Shown here: positions 18,375 through 44,584 of the stretch, in pieces | Position numbering within the stretch: the stretch's first letter is position 1 | Layout of the letters: every line of letters starts with the position of its first letter | NCBI GenBank assembly: GCA_005223185.1 | Contig: NJBN01000001.1 | Span: 571,961 to 635,960 of the forward strand | From: a candidate division LCP-89 bacterium B3_LCP | GTDB lineage: Bacteria; Electryoneota; B3-LCP | DNA length: 64,000 nucleotides | Reading direction: 5' to 3' | The notes under the pieces: model-generated | Databases searched by the model: none | The model's input: the letters and a program-made list of their open reading frames with translations, nothing else | What the model was told of the DNA's origin: nothing | Program-made: the position numbers and the translations under genes

Positions 18375-19685
18375 CTACTTCATCAACACCATCTTGCCAT
18401 TGGCGGTAAATTCACCTGCCTCAAGTCGGTACAAGTAGATCCCTGAAGCCAAGCCCGAACCATCGAAGGTGATCTGGTGGGTGCCGGGGGGATAATGGCG
18501 GGTCGACGCAAGGTCGACCCCTACGCGGGAACCGGAAATATCGAACACTTCCAGCTTCACCATACTCGCAACCGGCAGGGAGAAACTGATTACGGTGGTG
18601 GGGTTGAAGGGGTTGGGGTGGACTCTCTGTAAGGTGAAACCCTCGCAGATCGTTGTTTTGTCATTCCCAAATATTTTCGTCAGACTTTCACCGGTGCAAT
18701 TCCAACCAGTAACCGATCCGTTGCCATCGGCAAGGGTCGACTTGGAGAACGCAAAATGATCCTCTGTCCACACTGTATTCGGATAATTACCTACATATGC
18801 ATCGTAGGTATAATCGCCGGCAGGAGCGTTTGCTGGAACCACCTGCGAACGATCACGATCGATTGATGAATTGGGACCCATGGACACAGAAACATTGATT
18901 ATTGGACCATATTCACTGCCGTTCGGCAGCGTCACCATCGTCCATATATCAAAAGTAACAATTTCAGGTGAGCTGTTTTCCACGGCAATATTGAAGTCGA
19001 ACGATCCACCGTTAGCGGGAATCTGGATAGGTGGATTATCAGGAGTCAGAGTAACTTCAATCGGGCTTAAAGTTTGGTAAGTGATCGTCATTTGGGGTCT
19101 GTAAGCCGGAATAGTATAGTCAGAGGAATACCAGTTCGCATCGCATGTCCCGGAGGTATTCCTTGAATGCATGATAATACCGAAGTTTGGATAAGCTCCT
19201 GAATACCAGCCCTGAACGAATTCGGTTACATCTACAACGTGCCATTGCCCACCGACTGGCCAACCTGTTACAATCTGTCCATCCTCAGTATATCTGGGTA
19301 GTGTATTATGAGTCACCAGGGTTTCACCCCAGTCCTCGAGGATGCGTGAATAGAGCATTTCACCGGTTAGTGTGCCCTCCATCTGGAAGCAATGAAATTC
19401 AACGGTAGCGTCCGTGATGATCACATTTGCTGGAATCGTAGAGATATCCCACTGGCTTAAAGCGGTGTTAATGCACACTCCAATTTGACCCTGGTACAGT
19501 TTAGTAATCGGTCCAAATGGGTTGTTGGTATTGGGCGCACAGTTACAGGTGTAGGAATCTTTTCCTTCAGCACCCGGCTGCAATACCAGGGTTTCAGCAA
19601 TTACAATTGACATTGGTACAAGTATTAGAAGAGTCAAGAGAATAGCGATTCTTGTCACTCTGCTCGAATTAATTATTACACACAT
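18375..19685 (-). CDS. Secreted DNRLRE-like domain protein with T9SS sorting domain
   Basis: 436 residues. ATG 19685 has GGAG about 8 nt upstream and was chosen over an in-frame TTG four codons earlier. Order: signal peptide; a DNRLRE-like beta domain (TLVLQPGAEGKDSY ... NFGIIMHSR, about 30-200) common in surface-attached proteins; the recurrent TPDNPP...GGSFDFN module (about 209-320); and a type A sorting domain (VHPNPFNPTT ... SGIYLYRL). The domain contains an in-frame palindromic element (18499-18524). Its last 158 bp are identical to those of the next gene. Probably exported and anchored at the cell surface; function not known. Confidence 0.75.
   Translation of the reverse strand: MCVIINSSRVTRIAILLTLLILVPMSIVIAETLVLQPGAEGKDSYTCNCAPNTNNPFGPITKLYQGQIGVCINTALSQWDISTIPANVIITDATVEFHCFQMEGTLTGEMLYSRILEDWGETLVTHNTLPRYTEDGQIVTGWPVGGQWHVVDVTEFVQGWYSGAYPNFGIIMHSRNTSGTCDANWYSSDYTIPAYRPQMTITYQTLSPIEVTLTPDNPPIQIPANGGSFDFNIAVENSSPEIVTFDIWTMVTLPNGSEYGPIINVSVSMGPNSSIDRDRSQVVPANAPAGDYTYDAYVGNYPNTVWTEDHFAFSKSTLADGNGSVTGWNCTGESLTKIFGNDKTTICEGFTLQRVHPNPFNPTTVISFSLPVASMVKLEVFDISGSRVGVDLASTRHYPPGTHQITFDGSGLASGIYLYRLEAGEFTANGKMVLMK
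18379..18536. repeat. 158-bp direct repeat, copy 1 (sorting-domain coding)
   Basis: Read by eye, this stretch is identical to 20026-20183. Both encode the last part of a T9SS sorting domain on the minus strand. Divergence begins immediately 5' of the block in coding sense. Confidence 0.85.
18499..18524. repeat. REP-like palindrome inside coding sequence
   Basis: GTCGACGCAAGGTCGACC forms a small dyad within the sorting domain and encodes the GVDLASTR insertion on the minus strand. The flank GTAGGGG...CGCC resembles intergenic REP elements and the element at 37088-37145. Confidence 0.6.
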
Positions 19686-20021: not shown

Positions 20022-23000
20022 TTATTTCATCAACACCATCTTGCCATTGGCGGTAAATTCACCTGCCTCAAGTCGGTACAAGTAGATCCCTGAAGCCAAG
20101 CCCGAACCATCGAAGGTGATCTGGTGGGTGCCGGGGGGATAATGGCGGGTCGACGCAAGGTCGACCCCTACGCGGGAACCGGAGATATCGAACACATCCA
20201 GTTTCACCGTACTCGCGACCGGCAGGGAGAAACTGATGACTGTTGTGGGGTTGAAAGGGTTGGGGTAGTTTGACACAATCACCTGCCCTATAGGTAGCGC
20301 GGGGGCTTGTCCCCCGCTAATTTCAACCAACGGATCGCCTGCATTGCCCCAACTGTCAGAGCCATTAAGAACTGTTCCCAATTTTCCAAACATGAAGCTG
20401 TCCTTGGATGTATCCTGATCTACAACTGCGTAGGCGTTGTAATGATAAACGCCCATCGGTGCGGCAGCGGGAACGGTCTGCGTGCGGATGCGTTCGACAG
20501 TCTGTCCAGGTTCGATGGTGACGGTAACCGGACCTAAGACCGGCCCGTAAATCGTGCTATCTGGGAGCTCGACATCGCACCAGATGGTAACATCATGAGA
20601 ACTCTGATAAATATTGGTGCCCTGGATGGTGTAATCCATAGTTCCGCCTTCAGGTTCGATCAGGTAGGGGATTTCGTGAGGTGACAGAAGGATACGTACC
20701 GGTACACTCTGATCGAAGTAGAAAGCGCCCATGTCGGCTCTGGTGCTGTCTGGATCGTTGTACTGAGGATCAGGATCGCCGGCATCGATACACGGTGATC
20801 CCCACTGCAGGCGATAGTCATTCAAATCGGGATTAACGAACAGAGGATCTTCGTCGATGTTGCCGACACCGGGCCAGAGGGTGTCCTGAATGGTGGAGTA
20901 GGTAACCAGTAGATTGCCCCCCCCACCTACAGAGATTTGTTGCAAACTATTTAATGAGAAAATGTTGTTTATTGTATTTGGGTTTGAATCATAACTAAAG
21001 AGACCACCAGCGCCAAATGTGGAGAAATTACTGCTTACCGTATAGTTTGTGATTAAGGGATCGGAATCAATGAAATACATGCCTGCGCCATTCTGGTCGG
21101 TAGTATTTCCTGCGACCACACAACCATTGACAACAGGAGATATTTGATTACAAAATAAACCCCCACCAATATCTTGAGCGATATTATCTATGATGCTACA
21201 GTTATCTATGGTAAGATTCTGACCACTATTGCCACCTATACCACCACCATCTTCATTCGCTATATTTCTGGCAATAATACAGTTAATAAGATTTACCACA
21301 CCACGACAATGTAGTCCACCAGAATAATTTGCTGAATTATCCGTAATAATGCAATTCCCTAGCGTAATAGTTGCTAAGTTATGAATACCTCCACCTCCAC
21401 CACCAGAGAGTACATGTGAATTATTCGCGATAATACTGTTGGTGACGATTGTATTTGAGTTTGAGCAATTATATATCCCACCACCCTGGTAGGAAAAAAG
21501 ATTGTCTTTTATAATACAGCCATGTATATTTGCTGTTGAATTTACTATTCCTATTCCACCCCCGCAACTTACGCTGTTATTCGTGATTATGCAGTAATGT
21601 AATATTGGTGTAGAACTGTACCCGATATATATTCCACCACCGTAACCGAACCCAGTTGATGCTCCACCTGTAATAGTGCAGTGACTTAAGGTAGGATTAC
21701 TCCCATTAATCTGAATGCAGCGGTTTCCGGCACCCTCTATTGTACAATACTGCAATAGACAAGCCTCATAGGTGTTAATAAACTTCAAACCCTGCCAGGC
21801 ATTTATACCTTCAGCTGGTCTAAACCTGATACTGTCGATTTCTCCTCCCGCTGCATGAATATATCCCTCAATTTGAAAGTAGAAGTCACCATTAAAATTA
21901 AAGGTTGAACCAGGTTCAATATAAAGTGAATCCCCAATATTTACCATGATATTCGATTCTACAATGTAAACTCCTGAATCTAGCGTTCCGTTTAACGATC
22001 CTGAAATATGACAGACTGATCCGGTTTCGCGTAAAGTTACATTGGGTAATGTTAACGGACTGGTACAGTTTTGTCCAAGAATCACGCGGCTTCGGTACCC
22101 TGCTTGAATGAAAGATATGTCATAAATTCCCTCTGGTATTGCTATCGCGTAATGACCTGCCAGATTTGTAAAGGTTGAGTCACTAACTGCTCCTGGGGAG
22201 GCGGCTATAAAAAGAACCTTAGTACCGGCATGAATTGTTTGGTTCTCAAGATAACAGTAACCGTCTATGGGAACCGTTTCCCCAGTCTGGTGATAGTAAA
22301 AAGCCCCCATGTCTGCGACTGTCCCATCGGGATCATTTTGGGATTCCGGGTCACCGGCGTCGATACAGGGAGATCCTGCCTGGAGATTATAATCTCTGAT
22401 TACGGGATCCTCATACATCGGATCCATCAGGATATTATAGTAAGAATCGCAGCTATCGCCATTTGCATTGACCGCGGATAGTATCCCAAATCCCGGGGGA
22501 GCGGTTCCACCGGTTGTGCCGCCGGCGTTGTCATATATGTCGCAATATGCAATTTGAGGATCTTCCAGGATCTCAAAGTAGAATCCAGATCCCAGGGTTG
22601 AACCACTAATAATGCTGTTCTTTACTACGCCGGAAGAATTGCTCAAGTAAATCCCCGCTCCGGAAGACGATTGGTTTTGATCGAATGTGCAGTGCTCAAT
22701 CGTGTCGGCGCTGGAGCCTATTCCCCATAAATATGTACCTCCACCGTACTCAGCACTGTTGTTGTAAAATAAGCAATATCTAGCTGATAGGCTACCATCA
22801 TAAGCGTATATCCCCCCCCCTTTTGCAAGGCTGGTGTTGTTACCGAAATAGGAATCGAGAACCATCGGCTGAGATCCACCTTTACTATGTAATCCACCAC
22901 CGTGGGTGCTGGCTGAGTTACCGTTGATGATACAGTTTATTATAATTGCATCAGAGAGACTGGTGAGGTAGATACCACCCCCATGGTAGCTGAAATTGGC

Positions 23001-27974: not shown

Positions 27975-28092
27975 GGGATTTGGATAGTAACAAGAAAAGG
28001 GCGGGCACAGAGGTCCGCCCCTACAATTGAACTGAGATCCTTCACTACGTTCTCCGCAGGAGTCCTACGGACAGGATGACACACTTCGTGCG

Positions 28093-28330
28093 TCACTTCA
28101 GCAACACCATCTTACCACGAGTGCTGAAATCTCCTGCCGTCAAGCGGTAAATGTAAATACCCGACACCAATCCTGAACCATCAAAACTGATTTGGTGAAT
28201 GCCAGGGGGATAAAATCCCGTAGTCGGGTCGCCTGCCCCAATGGGGCCCCTGACCCCGACGGACACAACGTACAAAATTATAAATACGTATTGCATCTCC
28301 TTGTGGTCCATGACCGGTTGGGTAATCATC
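28093..28330 (-). pseudogene. Chimeric remnant: DUF1566 tail joined to a T9SS sorting-domain tail
   Basis: The last part reads HQISFDGSGLVSGIYIYRLTAGD and ends GKMVLLK, the C-terminus of a sorting domain, with no body in front. The first part, read in another frame, gives DYPTGHGPQGDAIRIYNFV followed by RCVR, the conserved end of DUF1566 proteins, and matches the end of the gene at 29679-30892. The two parts meet at a palindrome (28223-28260, GCCCC-AAT-GGGGC core). It is therefore recombination debris, not a functional gene, although one 78-codon frame happens to stay open. Confidence 0.7.
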
Positions 28331-28333
28331 AGT

Positions 28334-29485
28334 CTATTTATCTAATACCCAGCTTACATCATATTTAGAAGTTTCGCGATTTATAGGCATTTTTGAAATA
28401 TTTCTTTGTTTTTCAGATAACAGTTCAAAGTGACCATTGACACCCAATGCTTCACAGCCTATTTCCCAATTTGCACACCAAATACCCAGAGCAACCGGAG
28501 CATAGTAGCGAGAACTTGTTGTGGCATAGAAATCAAATCGTAATAGACCCGATTCATTGATGGTCGCTGGCAAATTATGTTCTTTTTCATTTTCTTCATC
28601 TGTTTCCATAACTGCGACACATCTGGTCGGTTGGGCGTTGAATGAAGATGGTGCCCATTGACAGACCTCATAACAACGTCCAAACAGGTTGAATGGATAA
28701 ACTAACTCACTTATGGGTTCTTTTAATAGAGGATCAGTAAAGAATAGTGAAGAAATTGGTAATCGTTTGTGTTGAATAAAAGATGCAATCCTTAAAGTAA
28801 TAGGAGTAAACCACGATTTGTAACCAAACGCACAAACACAAATAATGTGATCTTCTGATGCTTTAAACCTGTCACCTAACTGTAAAGCAATACTCTCCTG
28901 GTCAGCACCAGGCCCTATCCAGCATGATGCTAAACCCATTCGTGTGGCATGGTGGACAATCTTCTGTAGATTTCTTCCTACATCAATAACTGATTTCCGA
29001 CTGTAAGCCTTAGGGACAATTGCTACCAGGAATTCCTGGGCACCAACAACCGGCCAAACAGTCAGCCTTGCATTGATGTATTCAAATCTAATTGCGTGAG
29101 CACCAATTTTATCACTCTCTGAAGCATGAAACTTTTGAGATGTTTCAAGAAGTTCTTCACGATCAGAAGATGTCAAAAGGCGACTCTGGAATGAACGGCA
29201 GGAACGTCTTGCCCTCATTAGGTCAAATTCATCCATCCCCTCATAACGTTTAGAAAGTTTTTCGCGAGGTCTGATATCGTATTTTACAGTCAATATATCA
29301 AAAAGTGTTATTGCAAATAAAAGACTACTTGTTCCCAAAAACAGATTGGCAAAAATCATTAACTCGAACATCCATATTATAGAAACTGCAATTAAAAAAA
29401 TTATTACAATAACGAGAGGGAGAAGATATTGCAACCAACCAGTAAATTGCAATTTTAGTTTCAACTTCTTAAAAAAACTTATCAT
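28334..29485 (-). CDS. Membrane-anchored nitroreductase-family protein (TM nitroreductase type)
   Basis: 383 residues. Two hydrophobic helices near the N-terminus (YLLPLVIVIIFLIAVSIIWMF and IFANLFLGTSSLLFAITLF) are followed by RARRSCRSFQSRLLTSSD, the FMN-phosphate-binding arginine motif of nitroreductases, and GLASCWIGPGADQESI. The double-domain layout resembles the putative TM nitroreductase family (PF14512 type). Probably reduces a quinone, nitro compound or flavin-dependent substrate at the membrane. DNA here is more AT-rich than its neighbours, and it sits between DUF1566 fragments with a tRNA-like 3' end just upstream, so lateral acquisition is plausible. Confidence 0.7.
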   Translation of the reverse strand: MISFFKKLKLKLQFTGWLQYLLPLVIVIIFLIAVSIIWMFELMIFANLFLGTSSLLFAITLFDILTVKYDIRPREKLSKRYEGMDEFDLMRARRSCRSFQSRLLTSSDREELLETSQKFHASESDKIGAHAIRFEYINARLTVWPVVGAQEFLVAIVPKAYSRKSVIDVGRNLQKIVHHATRMGLASCWIGPGADQESIALQLGDRFKASEDHIICVCAFGYKSWFTPITLRIASFIQHKRLPISSLFFTDPLLKEPISELVYPFNLFGRCYEVCQWAPSSFNAQPTRCVAVMETDEENEKEHNLPATINESGLLRFDFYATTSSRYYAPVALGIWCANWEIGCEALGVNGHFELLSEKQRNISKMPINRETSKYDVSWVLDK

Positions 29486-34936: not shown

Positions 34937-37276
34937 ATGTTGAGGAAGATATTGGTTTTGGTGGGGGTGGTTGTGGGAATGGTAACTATTTGCCACGCCG
35001 TACAGATGGATGGGTATTGTTATTTGGGCGGACAGACAAACCACGAGGGTATTAAGGTACTATTTCAAGCGGACTCACCTTCTGCTGTGACGGATTCCGC
35101 CTATACAGATCAAATCGGTCACTATCAAGCTGATTTAATTGGTGGATTCTATGACATATCGTTTTCGTATGAGAGTTTCCTCACAGAAACAATCATTGAC
35201 CAAAATTGCTTTAATCCTCTTACATTGCCCGAAATGATAATTTATATTCCCCTTTCTGGGGCTTTGAGTGGAACTATTGAGACTAATCCCTATATTATCA
35301 TTGATGAGATATGGATATGGGTGGGAGCATCTCTGATAATAGAACCCGGCACCACTTTCCTTTTTGATGGCAATTATGAATTCTTTATAAATCATGGCAC
35401 TCTATATGCTATTGGGACAGAAGAAGATAGTATTAGATTTATCCCTAACGAGGGAATAAATTACTGGGAGGGCTTCGAGTTCTCAATCTCTGATTCAGCT
35501 GTGCTCGAATATTGCTTAGTTTCTGGAAGTAATTCATCTGGTATCTATTGCGGGGGGTCAAATCTTAGAATAGGCAATTGTTCGATAATTGGGAACTCAT
35601 CCCCCGATTGGGGCGGAGGTATTCACTGTGCGGGCTTTTCGGAAGCGACATTAATCACTAAATGCTTGATAGCGAGTAATAGTGCCTCTCAGGGTGGTGG
35701 AATTCGGTGCTACAATTCCAATCCGGTGATAGACCATTGTGTCATTTCAAATAATACTGCTCAAAGTGGTGGGGGACTTTTTTGCAGCAATGACGCGAAT
35801 CCTATAGTAGTGAATTGTACGTTTACCGGAAATGCCTCCTACAGTCAGGGGGGTGGAATATATTGTTATGAGTCCAGTCCAAATATAAAAAACACAATAA
35901 TCTCAAATAGTGTTAATGCGGGAATCTATTTTAATGATTCACAAAATACCTCCATAATTAATGGAGACTTCTATGGAAACTCTTGGAACTTTGGAGGGAA
36001 CTACCTTCCTCAATATTTAGGCCAACTCGTCACCACTAATACCAACGGCGATTCCTGTGATGCGTTCTACAATATCTTCGAAGATCCTCAATTTGTCAAT
36101 CCGAGCATCGGTGATTTTAATCTCCAAGCAAGTTCTCCCTGCATAGACGCAGGTGATCCGACCTCTCCCTTTGATCCTGACAGTACCATAGCAGATATAG
36201 GTGCATTTTACTATCACCAAGTACCACCGCCAGTAATTATTGTCTCTTCTGATACTTTAGATTTCAGTTCAATTGTCGTCAGTTACTCAGATGTACTCCC
36301 TTTAACCATCTTTAACATCGGCGACACAACCCTTGTTCTATACGCCATCACTACGACCGATCCTGTCCTTACAACTGACTATAATCCTGCAGATAGTCTC
36401 ATTGAGGCTGGTGACAGTCTGGAAATCACCGTTACCTTCTTACCGGATGAAATCGCTACGTATAACGCTGTCTTATCCATAGATAACAACGATGAACTGG
36501 TAGAAGTTGCACTGCAAGGCAAGGGTGTTGGTCCGGTGGATGTGGAATTAAGACCATACAATCCACCTATCGTCATTCCTGAAACTGGAGGATCATTCGA
36601 TTTCAATATTTCCGCCTGGAACCGTTCACAGGACCCGCAAACCTTTGATCTGTGGACTGAAATTCGCCTGCCTGGCTTTGGTACTGTGCCCATCATGACG
36701 GTAACAGATTTATCACTTCCCGCAGGAGTTACTGTTGACCGTGATCGTTCTCAGGAAGTACCAGGTAACGCTCCCGCCGGAATATATTCATATTATGCTT
36801 ATGTGGGCGAGTATCCCTGGGTGATAGAAGATTTTGGCGTGTTTACGTTTGAGAAGGAAGGCACAGCGGGCGAAGGATCGTTAGGATTACCATCCGATTG
36901 GACATGCACGGGTGAAGGATTCGAAGAATGGATCGAACCCGTCGGATTCGGGGAATCCAACCTACCAACGGAATTTGCGTTATTGGGCGTCTATCCCAAC
37001 CCCTTCAATCCCATCACCACCATTTCATTTACGCTGCCGGAAGCTGGGATGGTGAGGTTGGAGGTTTTTGATATAAGCGGGCGTAATGTAGGGGCGACCC
37101 TCTGTGGTCGCCCAGGATTGGGTAGCCACGGAGGGCGACCCCTACGCGAGGATTGGATGAATGCTGGGCGGCACCTGATTTCCTTCGATGGTTCGGGTCT
37201 GGCATCGGGGATTTATATCTACCGTCTGACTGCCGGGGAGTTTACAGCGTCAGGGAAGATGGTGTTGATGAAGTAA
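34937..37276 (+). CDS. Secreted beta-helix protein with ASH-like domain and T9SS sorting domain
   Basis: 779 residues. Signal peptide, then a carboxypeptidase-regulatory-like segment (DGYCYLGGQTNHEGIKVLF) also found in the 20022 protein, beta-helix coils (SQGGGIRCYNS, SGGGLFC), an ASH/choice-of-anchor-D domain (DTLDFSSIVVSYSDVLPLTI), the recurrent module (RPYNPPIVIPETGGSFDFNI), and a sorting domain. Inside the sorting domain, a 60-nt palindromic element adds 20 residues in frame (GATLCGRPGLGSHGGRPLRE) between GRNV and DW. AGGAGG is 6 nt before the ATG. Probably a cell-surface protein; ligand unknown. Confidence 0.8.
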   Translation: MLRKILVLVGVVVGMVTICHAVQMDGYCYLGGQTNHEGIKVLFQADSPSAVTDSAYTDQIGHYQADLIGGFYDISFSYESFLTETIIDQNCFNPLTLPEMIIYIPLSGALSGTIETNPYIIIDEIWIWVGASLIIEPGTTFLFDGNYEFFINHGTLYAIGTEEDSIRFIPNEGINYWEGFEFSISDSAVLEYCLVSGSNSSGIYCGGSNLRIGNCSIIGNSSPDWGGGIHCAGFSEATLITKCLIASNSASQGGGIRCYNSNPVIDHCVISNNTAQSGGGLFCSNDANPIVVNCTFTGNASYSQGGGIYCYESSPNIKNTIISNSVNAGIYFNDSQNTSIINGDFYGNSWNFGGNYLPQYLGQLVTTNTNGDSCDAFYNIFEDPQFVNPSIGDFNLQASSPCIDAGDPTSPFDPDSTIADIGAFYYHQVPPPVIIVSSDTLDFSSIVVSYSDVLPLTIFNIGDTTLVLYAITTTDPVLTTDYNPADSLIEAGDSLEITVTFLPDEIATYNAVLSIDNNDELVEVALQGKGVGPVDVELRPYNPPIVIPETGGSFDFNISAWNRSQDPQTFDLWTEIRLPGFGTVPIMTVTDLSLPAGVTVDRDRSQEVPGNAPAGIYSYYAYVGEYPWVIEDFGVFTFEKEGTAGEGSLGLPSDWTCTGEGFEEWIEPVGFGESNLPTEFALLGVYPNPFNPITTISFTLPEAGMVRLEVFDISGRNVGATLCGRPGLGSHGGRPLREDWMNAGRHLISFDGSGLASGIYIYRLTAGEFTASGKMVLMK
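37088..37145. repeat. REP-like inverted repeat within coding sequence
   Basis: Left arm GTAGGGGCGACCCTC and right arm GAGGGCGACCCCTAC face each other, with a smaller GGCGACC/GGTCGCC dyad in the left part. It resembles intergenic GTAGGGGCGGAC-type repeats such as 28008-28024. Translated in frame as part of the sorting domain. Confidence 0.7.
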
Positions 37277-44448: not shown

Positions 44449-44584
44449 TAATTCCCGCGTAAAATGATGGTAGCGCGGGGGTTTGCCCCCCCGCCTAATA
44501 AGGACATGCTTCGTCTCGCCTGCGGCGATCCGGAAGCATGCCACCCATTGAATGCAAGCCTGATGTAATAAGAAAATAAATATA
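44449..44584. repeat. Palindromic repeats between lipoprotein gene and nuoL
   Basis: GCGGGGGTTTGCCCCCCGC (44476-44494) and GGCATGCTTCC-type arms (ATGCTTCGTCTCG ... CGGAAGCATG, 44503-44541). No gene seen, and no obvious ribosome-binding site before nuoL. Confidence 0.5.

Follow-up and report, generated by a model that had tools for sequence, protein, structure and literature searches.

How a palindromic repeat comes to be read in frame as part of the sorting domain of an exported protein, and why the same loop of many related domains holds such repeats, is the question raised by the gene at positions 34937 to 37276 (+ strand) of the window, i.e., the 64,000-nucleotide stretch of DNA analyzed here, which corresponds to C7:571961-635960 (contig C7) within a 3.79 Mb draft genome.

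The REP dimer and its sorting-domain loop

The gene specifies a beta-helix protein whose C terminus scores 30.9 bits against PF18962 (cutoff, 27) and is thus a member of the T9SS type A sorting domains (TIGR04183/PF18962). This domain (36995 to 37273, + strand) is split by a 58-nt A-type REP dimer (37088 to 37145, + strand), which consists of two facing GTAG-tagged hairpins (REP/BIME), the first with the layout GTAG-GGGCGACC-CTCTGT-GGTCGCCC and the second, which follows the 6-nt spacer AGGATT, being an inverted unit, GGGTAGCC-ACGGAG-GGCGACCC-CTAC, with a terminal CTAC. As single-stranded DNA, the element folds into one hairpin of -22.7 kcal/mol, compared with a mean of -10.4 for shuffled sequences (z = -6.65; 0 of 200 shuffles equally good), and a search of the window for Rfam families returned none. 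The reading frame remains open across the element and encodes VGATLCGRPGLGSHGGRPLR. While the loop between the motifs ..DISG and G.H usually comprises 13 residues (130 of 197 domains), that of the 34937 protein comprises 28; the in-frame inverted repeat described in an earlier note on this DNA is, therefore, present, but the gain is a net 15 residues rather than the 20 proposed, because native loop residues have been replaced.

An AlphaFold2 model of this sorting domain (25 sequences; mean pLDDT, 74) predicts a beta-sandwich of seven strands, in which the insert is positioned between the strand at residues 31 to 38 and the strands at residues 66 to 78. The insert is modelled at a pLDDT of about 43, with residues 50 to 60 of the modelled 106 falling below 50, and the core is more confident. 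The nearest solved folds identified by Foldseek include the T9SS cargo domains 8glk_D and 8qb1, with weak matches (E values of 0.002 to 0.008, none reaching E <= 0.001). The REP-bearing loop is predicted as a low-confidence, probably exposed segment between core strands, in line with the surface loop suggested in the earlier note. The presence of the REP insert lowers the scores of T9SS domain models on such sorting domains.

Judged by sequence comparison, the window element is chimeric: an A-type interior is joined to the 3' end (GCGACCCCTACGCG) and the downstream 20 nt of B/J-type domains, with which the element also shares its flanks, and the junction falls within or close to the shared CCCCTAC terminus. 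A full-length A-type dimer was never found whole between genes in a search of the genome, the copies being confined to sorting loops.

The window harbors several further repeat units, most of which had been recognized in the earlier note. The 18375 and 20022 proteins carry B2-type REPs (GTAGGGGTCGACCTTGCGTCGACCC in the former) in frame in the corresponding loop, at positions 18500 to 18524 and 20147 to 20171, respectively (both - strand), each displaying CGCGTAGGGGTCGACCTTGCGTCGACCCG at the matching position with a net gain of only 2 residues. The C-terminal halves of these neighboring sorting domains (18375 to 18620 and 20022 to 20270) are nearly identical in DNA, which suggests recent duplication or conversion. 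The repeat noted in the linker of the 20022 protein is an H-type REP, GTAGCGCGGGGGCTTGTCCCCCGC (20294 to 20317, + strand, the protein being encoded on the - strand), a type which also borders a RAYT gene in another part of the genome. The remnant at 28093 (open frame at 28096 to 28341, - strand), considered a fragment because its N-terminal half is missing, bears a degenerate reversed G-type palindrome in the equivalent slot (28223 to 28260, - strand), as previously indicated, and is followed by an intergenic, terminator-like A-type REP (27999 to 28024, - strand) and then a T-rich stretch. A further intergenic REP, of the H type (GTAGCGCGGGGGTTTGCCCCCCCGC), is located at 44470 to 44494 (+ strand).

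REP families in the genome and among relatives

The genome contains over 300 candidate sorting domains (338 in a first look with TIGR04183), which for 3.8 Mb represents an unusually large T9SS cargo set. Survey of these domains, as advocated in the earlier note, covered contig C18 in its entirety and 80 stretches chosen around domains and GTAGGGG sites outside C18. GTAG-class units were found, in frame, at one loop in 54 of the 197 sorting domains with a readable loop, a proportion which overstates the genome-wide share because of the manner in which the stretches outside C18 were chosen; within C18, a REP occupies the loop of 3 of some 42 sorting domains. The units show the hallmark of GTAG-class REPs, a short GC-rich hairpin adjoining a 5' GTAG, and represent at least eight sequence families in both orientations: A (GTAGGGGCGACCCTCTGTGGTCGCCC and variants), B/B2 (GTAGGGGTCGGTCTTGCGCCGACCC), C (GTAGGGGCGAGGCATGCCTCGCCC), D (GTAGGGGCGTTTCGTGAAACGCCC), E (GTAGGGGCGGGTTT...), F (GTAGGTCGGATTCCCCGAATCCGAC), G (GTAGTCGGGGTCGCCCCTGACCCCGA), and J, which corresponds to B with an inner GC-rich segment. 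B-type units occur both forward (..SRVGVGLAPTR..) and reversed (..REVGSAQDRPLRE..), F- and G-type units are reversed, and paired opposite units are present as A+A', C+B', and C+G'. Stem scores of the 130 plain 13-residue loops equal those of shuffled sequence, whereas most REP-type loops score 7 to 10, and decayed copies are found in the loops at C13:90256 and C7:17037. One sorting loop (C16:319576-322113) carries five extra residues (ADLKSASIVDRW) which match no REP family. A second slot, in the last beta-turn (IYRL..GKMVL), holds only G-type REPs, in reversed orientation (SGSGATPTT), in approximately 5 domains of this genome and approximately 10 in relatives, examples being C2:83484, C7:271639, C6:166942, C4:668, and C15:2597, and, among the relatives, L216, L228, L233, L260, L310, and L313.

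In the unselected sequence of C18 and the window (423 kb), 33 perfect GTAG hairpins were detected, compared to 0 to 2 in Markov-2 sequences of equal length. All family-type REPs lying deep within genes belonged to sorting-domain proteins (six units in the loop and one in a linker), an E-type loop unit at C18:244077 having been missed by the hairpin scan on account of its overly long hairpin loop; the remaining hairpins were intergenic or at gene edges, with the exception of four without a known family (C18:152373, 167589, and 333765 and C7:585510), which were excluded as they match no REP family and occur at near the chance rate. The likeness of the inserts to intergenic repeats, on which the earlier note had staked its proposal, is borne out by exact matches between genes for the B2 (C7:285584), F (C18:197997), and B (C18:282924/283448) types, so that the inserts do not lack intergenic counterparts. 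Overall, the B, F, G, and H types recur between genes in exact or near-exact form, and the A type only as related single hairpins. The latter often end in a T-run and, lying 24 to 27 nt past a sorting-domain gene's stop codon, resemble terminators; approximately 15 sorting-domain genes have an A-type hairpin and T-run at such a fixed distance (e.g., C4:17052, C4:53248, C7:474434, and C18:293358).

Ten genes with a Y1 transposase domain were identified in the genome. When scored with the RAYT model NF047646 of NCBIfam (cutoff, 80 bits), the gene at C18:283068 (97 bits) and that at C4:172793 (104.6 bits) exceed the cutoff, the former having inverted B-type REPs on its two sides and the latter being surrounded by H-type REPs, while the RAYT-like gene at C18:285179, with G-type REPs on one side, scores 71 bits, below the cutoff, on the fragment scanned. 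The location of these genes beside matching REPs ties families B, G, and H to candidate RAYT enzymes; no cognate RAYT for family A (the type at 37088 to 37145), C, D, or F was found among the ten Y1 transposase-domain genes. The region C18:282900-285400 harbors two RAYT-like genes approximately 2 kb apart, one with B-type and the other with G-type cognate REPs, and a chain of REP fragments alongside. In the RAYT-like gene at C14:126195-126359 (L070), two parts of the transposase domain are separated by an E-type REP, NVGAGFAEGTLKGKPAPT, which lies in frame.

The close relatives of this bacterium are candidate division LCP-89 and "Calditrichaeota" metagenome-assembled genomes (MAGs) of the same bacterial family. 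Across the six genera of this family, a DNA pattern of the slot matched 16, 3, 6, 19, 38, and 13 times (controls, 0 to 6), compared with 0 to 2 times in 33 genomes of the phylum that belong to other families; the counts for G002 and G005 are not far above the control, and REP-filled loops were read directly there. By these counts and direct readings, all six genera possess the REP-filled loop, while the 33 genomes of other families do not, and the sorting-domain loops of Ignavibacteria, Balneolia, and others are plain. One genus has a perfect 28-nt palindrome, GTAGGGGTTCAACATGTTGAACCCCTAC, with the loop length kept at 13 residues. In two other genera (L209 and L216), the slot is filled by ACCAGC-type short tandem repeats, which are not palindromes, a finding which speaks for a slot that tolerates repeats as such over one that requires palindromes. 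ACCAGC-like arrays are also present between genes in a third genus (L217/L287 and L285).

Origin and turnover of the slot content

The most probable explanation, to which we assign a probability of roughly 0.7, is that a REP occupied a tolerant loop of the T9SS domain in an ancestor, and that this slot has since been refilled by active REPs and by exchange between paralogues. The raw material would be the many GTAG-class REP families of the genome, three of which have a RAYT beside matching REPs. In the ancestor of the family, a REP is presumed to have landed after the conserved G-R-x-V of the sorting domain, where about 4 to 9 native residues have been replaced. Secretion would presumably have been kept, since the loop is likely to be both exposed and tolerant and a REP read GTA-GGG supplies the valine and introduces no stop. 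The REP-bearing domain then expanded, this genome now having over 50 copies, and its REP has repeatedly been swapped for others of different sequence, orientation, or number, as shown by the domain tree, the orthologues, and the chimeric junction. Such turnover may have proceeded through insertion of a new REP beside the old one and through short paralogue exchanges ending in the shared GTAGGGG/CCCCTAC termini; the second turn near the C terminus accepts G-type REPs alone. The REP is most plausibly mobile DNA that is tolerated and now forms a lasting, variable segment of exported proteins, rather than a selected function. We infer both the mobility conferred by RAYTs and tolerance as the reason for the REPs' location, every genome being represented by a single assembly in which transposition was not observed.

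The position of the units is strikingly constant. Forward units read GTA-GGG in 82 of 83 cases across the six genera, thus supplying the conserved valine of G-R-x-V without a stop, and genes stay open across the palindromic insert. Because two of the three frames escape the TAG stop, the nearly invariant frame signifies a fixed position. Such constancy of frame and starting point would also be expected if RAYTs recognized the DNA of the loop, or a resident REP, so that insertion was directed and not merely tolerated; the composite slots (C+B', C+G', and A+A'), which resemble a REP landing beside a REP, and the use of the second turn by the G type alone point in the same direction. Tolerance coupled with the loss of disrupted copies would, however, yield an equal frame bias, plain domains are two to three times as numerous and yet received few inserts, and a target motif was not demonstrated. 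We accordingly regard it as unlikely that RAYTs direct REPs to a built-in hot spot, with this one surface loop of exported proteins being rewritten continually, although, if this were true, mobile palindromes would generate in-frame protein variation at one set position.

The history of the slot was assessed with a tree of 188 domains built on the flanks alone (111 columns), whose resolution is low, with most forks unresolved, so that change counts are rough. Presence or absence of a REP requires 3 changes on this tree, and REP type 28 to 34, which implies that the REP-bearing domains are essentially one subfamily with changing content. The small number of presence changes is what would be predicted by one old insertion inherited by duplication, the present inserts being its diverged copies, and the resemblance of REP-bearing flanks to one clade could also be caused by gene conversion. 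The inserts themselves, however, derive from nonhomologous families in both orientations, and they are more alike than their flanks, both within and between genera: identity among single B-type REPs is 92 to 93%, compared with 73% (within this genome) and 68% (between genomes) for their flanks. Reciprocal-best-hit orthologues, moreover, carry different REPs. In genus G001, the reciprocal best hit to the window protein (51% identity over 674 residues) has a B-type REP, and a partial, shorter match in G003 has a G-type REP; orthologues in other genera thus hold a different REP or none, and the presence of the inserts in orthologues as ordinary coding sequence, by which the earlier note would have been refuted, is not borne out. 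In other reciprocal pairs, a REP-bearing domain is matched to a plain one, so that genes have probably also exchanged whole sorting domains. Descent of all inserts from a single one is, therefore, contradicted as regards insert content and remains tenable solely for how the slot arose; as a full account, it is improbable. On this tree, most REP copies represent content changes in a subfamily-wide slot and not independent insertions into empty sites, and the tree suggests that a few plain domains may have gained a REP afresh, namely those with C-type REPs at C7:12693 and C7:14645, which sit among plain domains.

Maintenance of the palindrome for a function, for instance in the mRNA (as a hairpin), in recombination (as a site), or in exported proteins (as a required peptide), appears still less probable. 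Every REP-bearing member in this genome retains its palindrome despite sequence change, and this lack of losses could hint at selection; against this, the copies at C13:90256 and C7:17037 have decayed, and nonpalindromic ACCAGC-type repeats fill the slot in two genera. The suggestion of the earlier note that the repeats aid recombination between sorting domains gained no support: the correlation between left- and right-flank distances was not lower in REP-bearing domains than in a matched plain set (r values of 0.20 and 0.10, respectively), and no recombination effect was seen in this weak and crude test. Chance palindromes in ordinary coding sequence, or assembly error, are refuted by the fold score (z = -6.65), the 33 hairpins where 0 to 2 are expected, and the recurrence of the phenomenon in six separately assembled genera.

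Relation to known repeat systems

REPs within genes are known, and their concentration on one loop is undescribed in the literature searched; no prior report of REP insertion in T9SS sorting domains was retrieved there, most subscription journals being outside its reach. One genome presents dozens of parallel cases in which mobile noncoding DNA has become protein at one structural position, and these span both orientations, many families, dimers, decayed copies, and differing orthologues, with candidate transposases in the same genome. Two questions are thereby made testable, i.e., by what route REPs spread and whether the addition of protein segments by selfish palindromes reflects mere tolerance or targeting.

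The closest parallel is provided by GTAG-class REPs, which have been reported within scattered genes, some being translated in frame (Di Nocera et al. 2013, PMC3733652), and which share with the present units the GTAG tag, the short hairpin, the formation of dimers, and the association with RAYTs. The intragenic REPs of that study reside in unrelated genes, many of which function in DNA synthesis or repair, and mostly at different sites, a shared site being reported only for recB of two Xanthomonas species, whereas here dozens of units from many REP families occupy one loop across six genera. Rickettsia palindromic elements (Ogata, Claverie and colleagues, via PMC3733652) likewise represent in-frame palindromic repeats across which genes stay open. 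As far as that secondary account describes them, they are dispersed over many unrelated proteins with no single residue position, whereas a single domain family is affected here (in C18 and the window), and RPE-4 and RPE-6 are assigned to the CGTC class, whereas all units described here are of the GTAG class. PARCELs (Roske 2010, PMC2996958) are comparable in being coding palindromes that diversify surface proteins, but they constitute domains of tandem repeats, 25 residues each, and have no relation to REPs or T9SS. Finally, REPINs/BIMEs and their RAYTs (Nunvar 2010, PMC2817692; Bertels and Rainey 2011, PMC3116915; TnpA-REP, PMC8266576) resemble the present system in their paired inverted REPs and in the location of REPs beside an IS200/IS605-type tyrosine transposase; such elements are described as mainly extragenic, whereas the A-type dimer of this genome is found only inside sorting domains.
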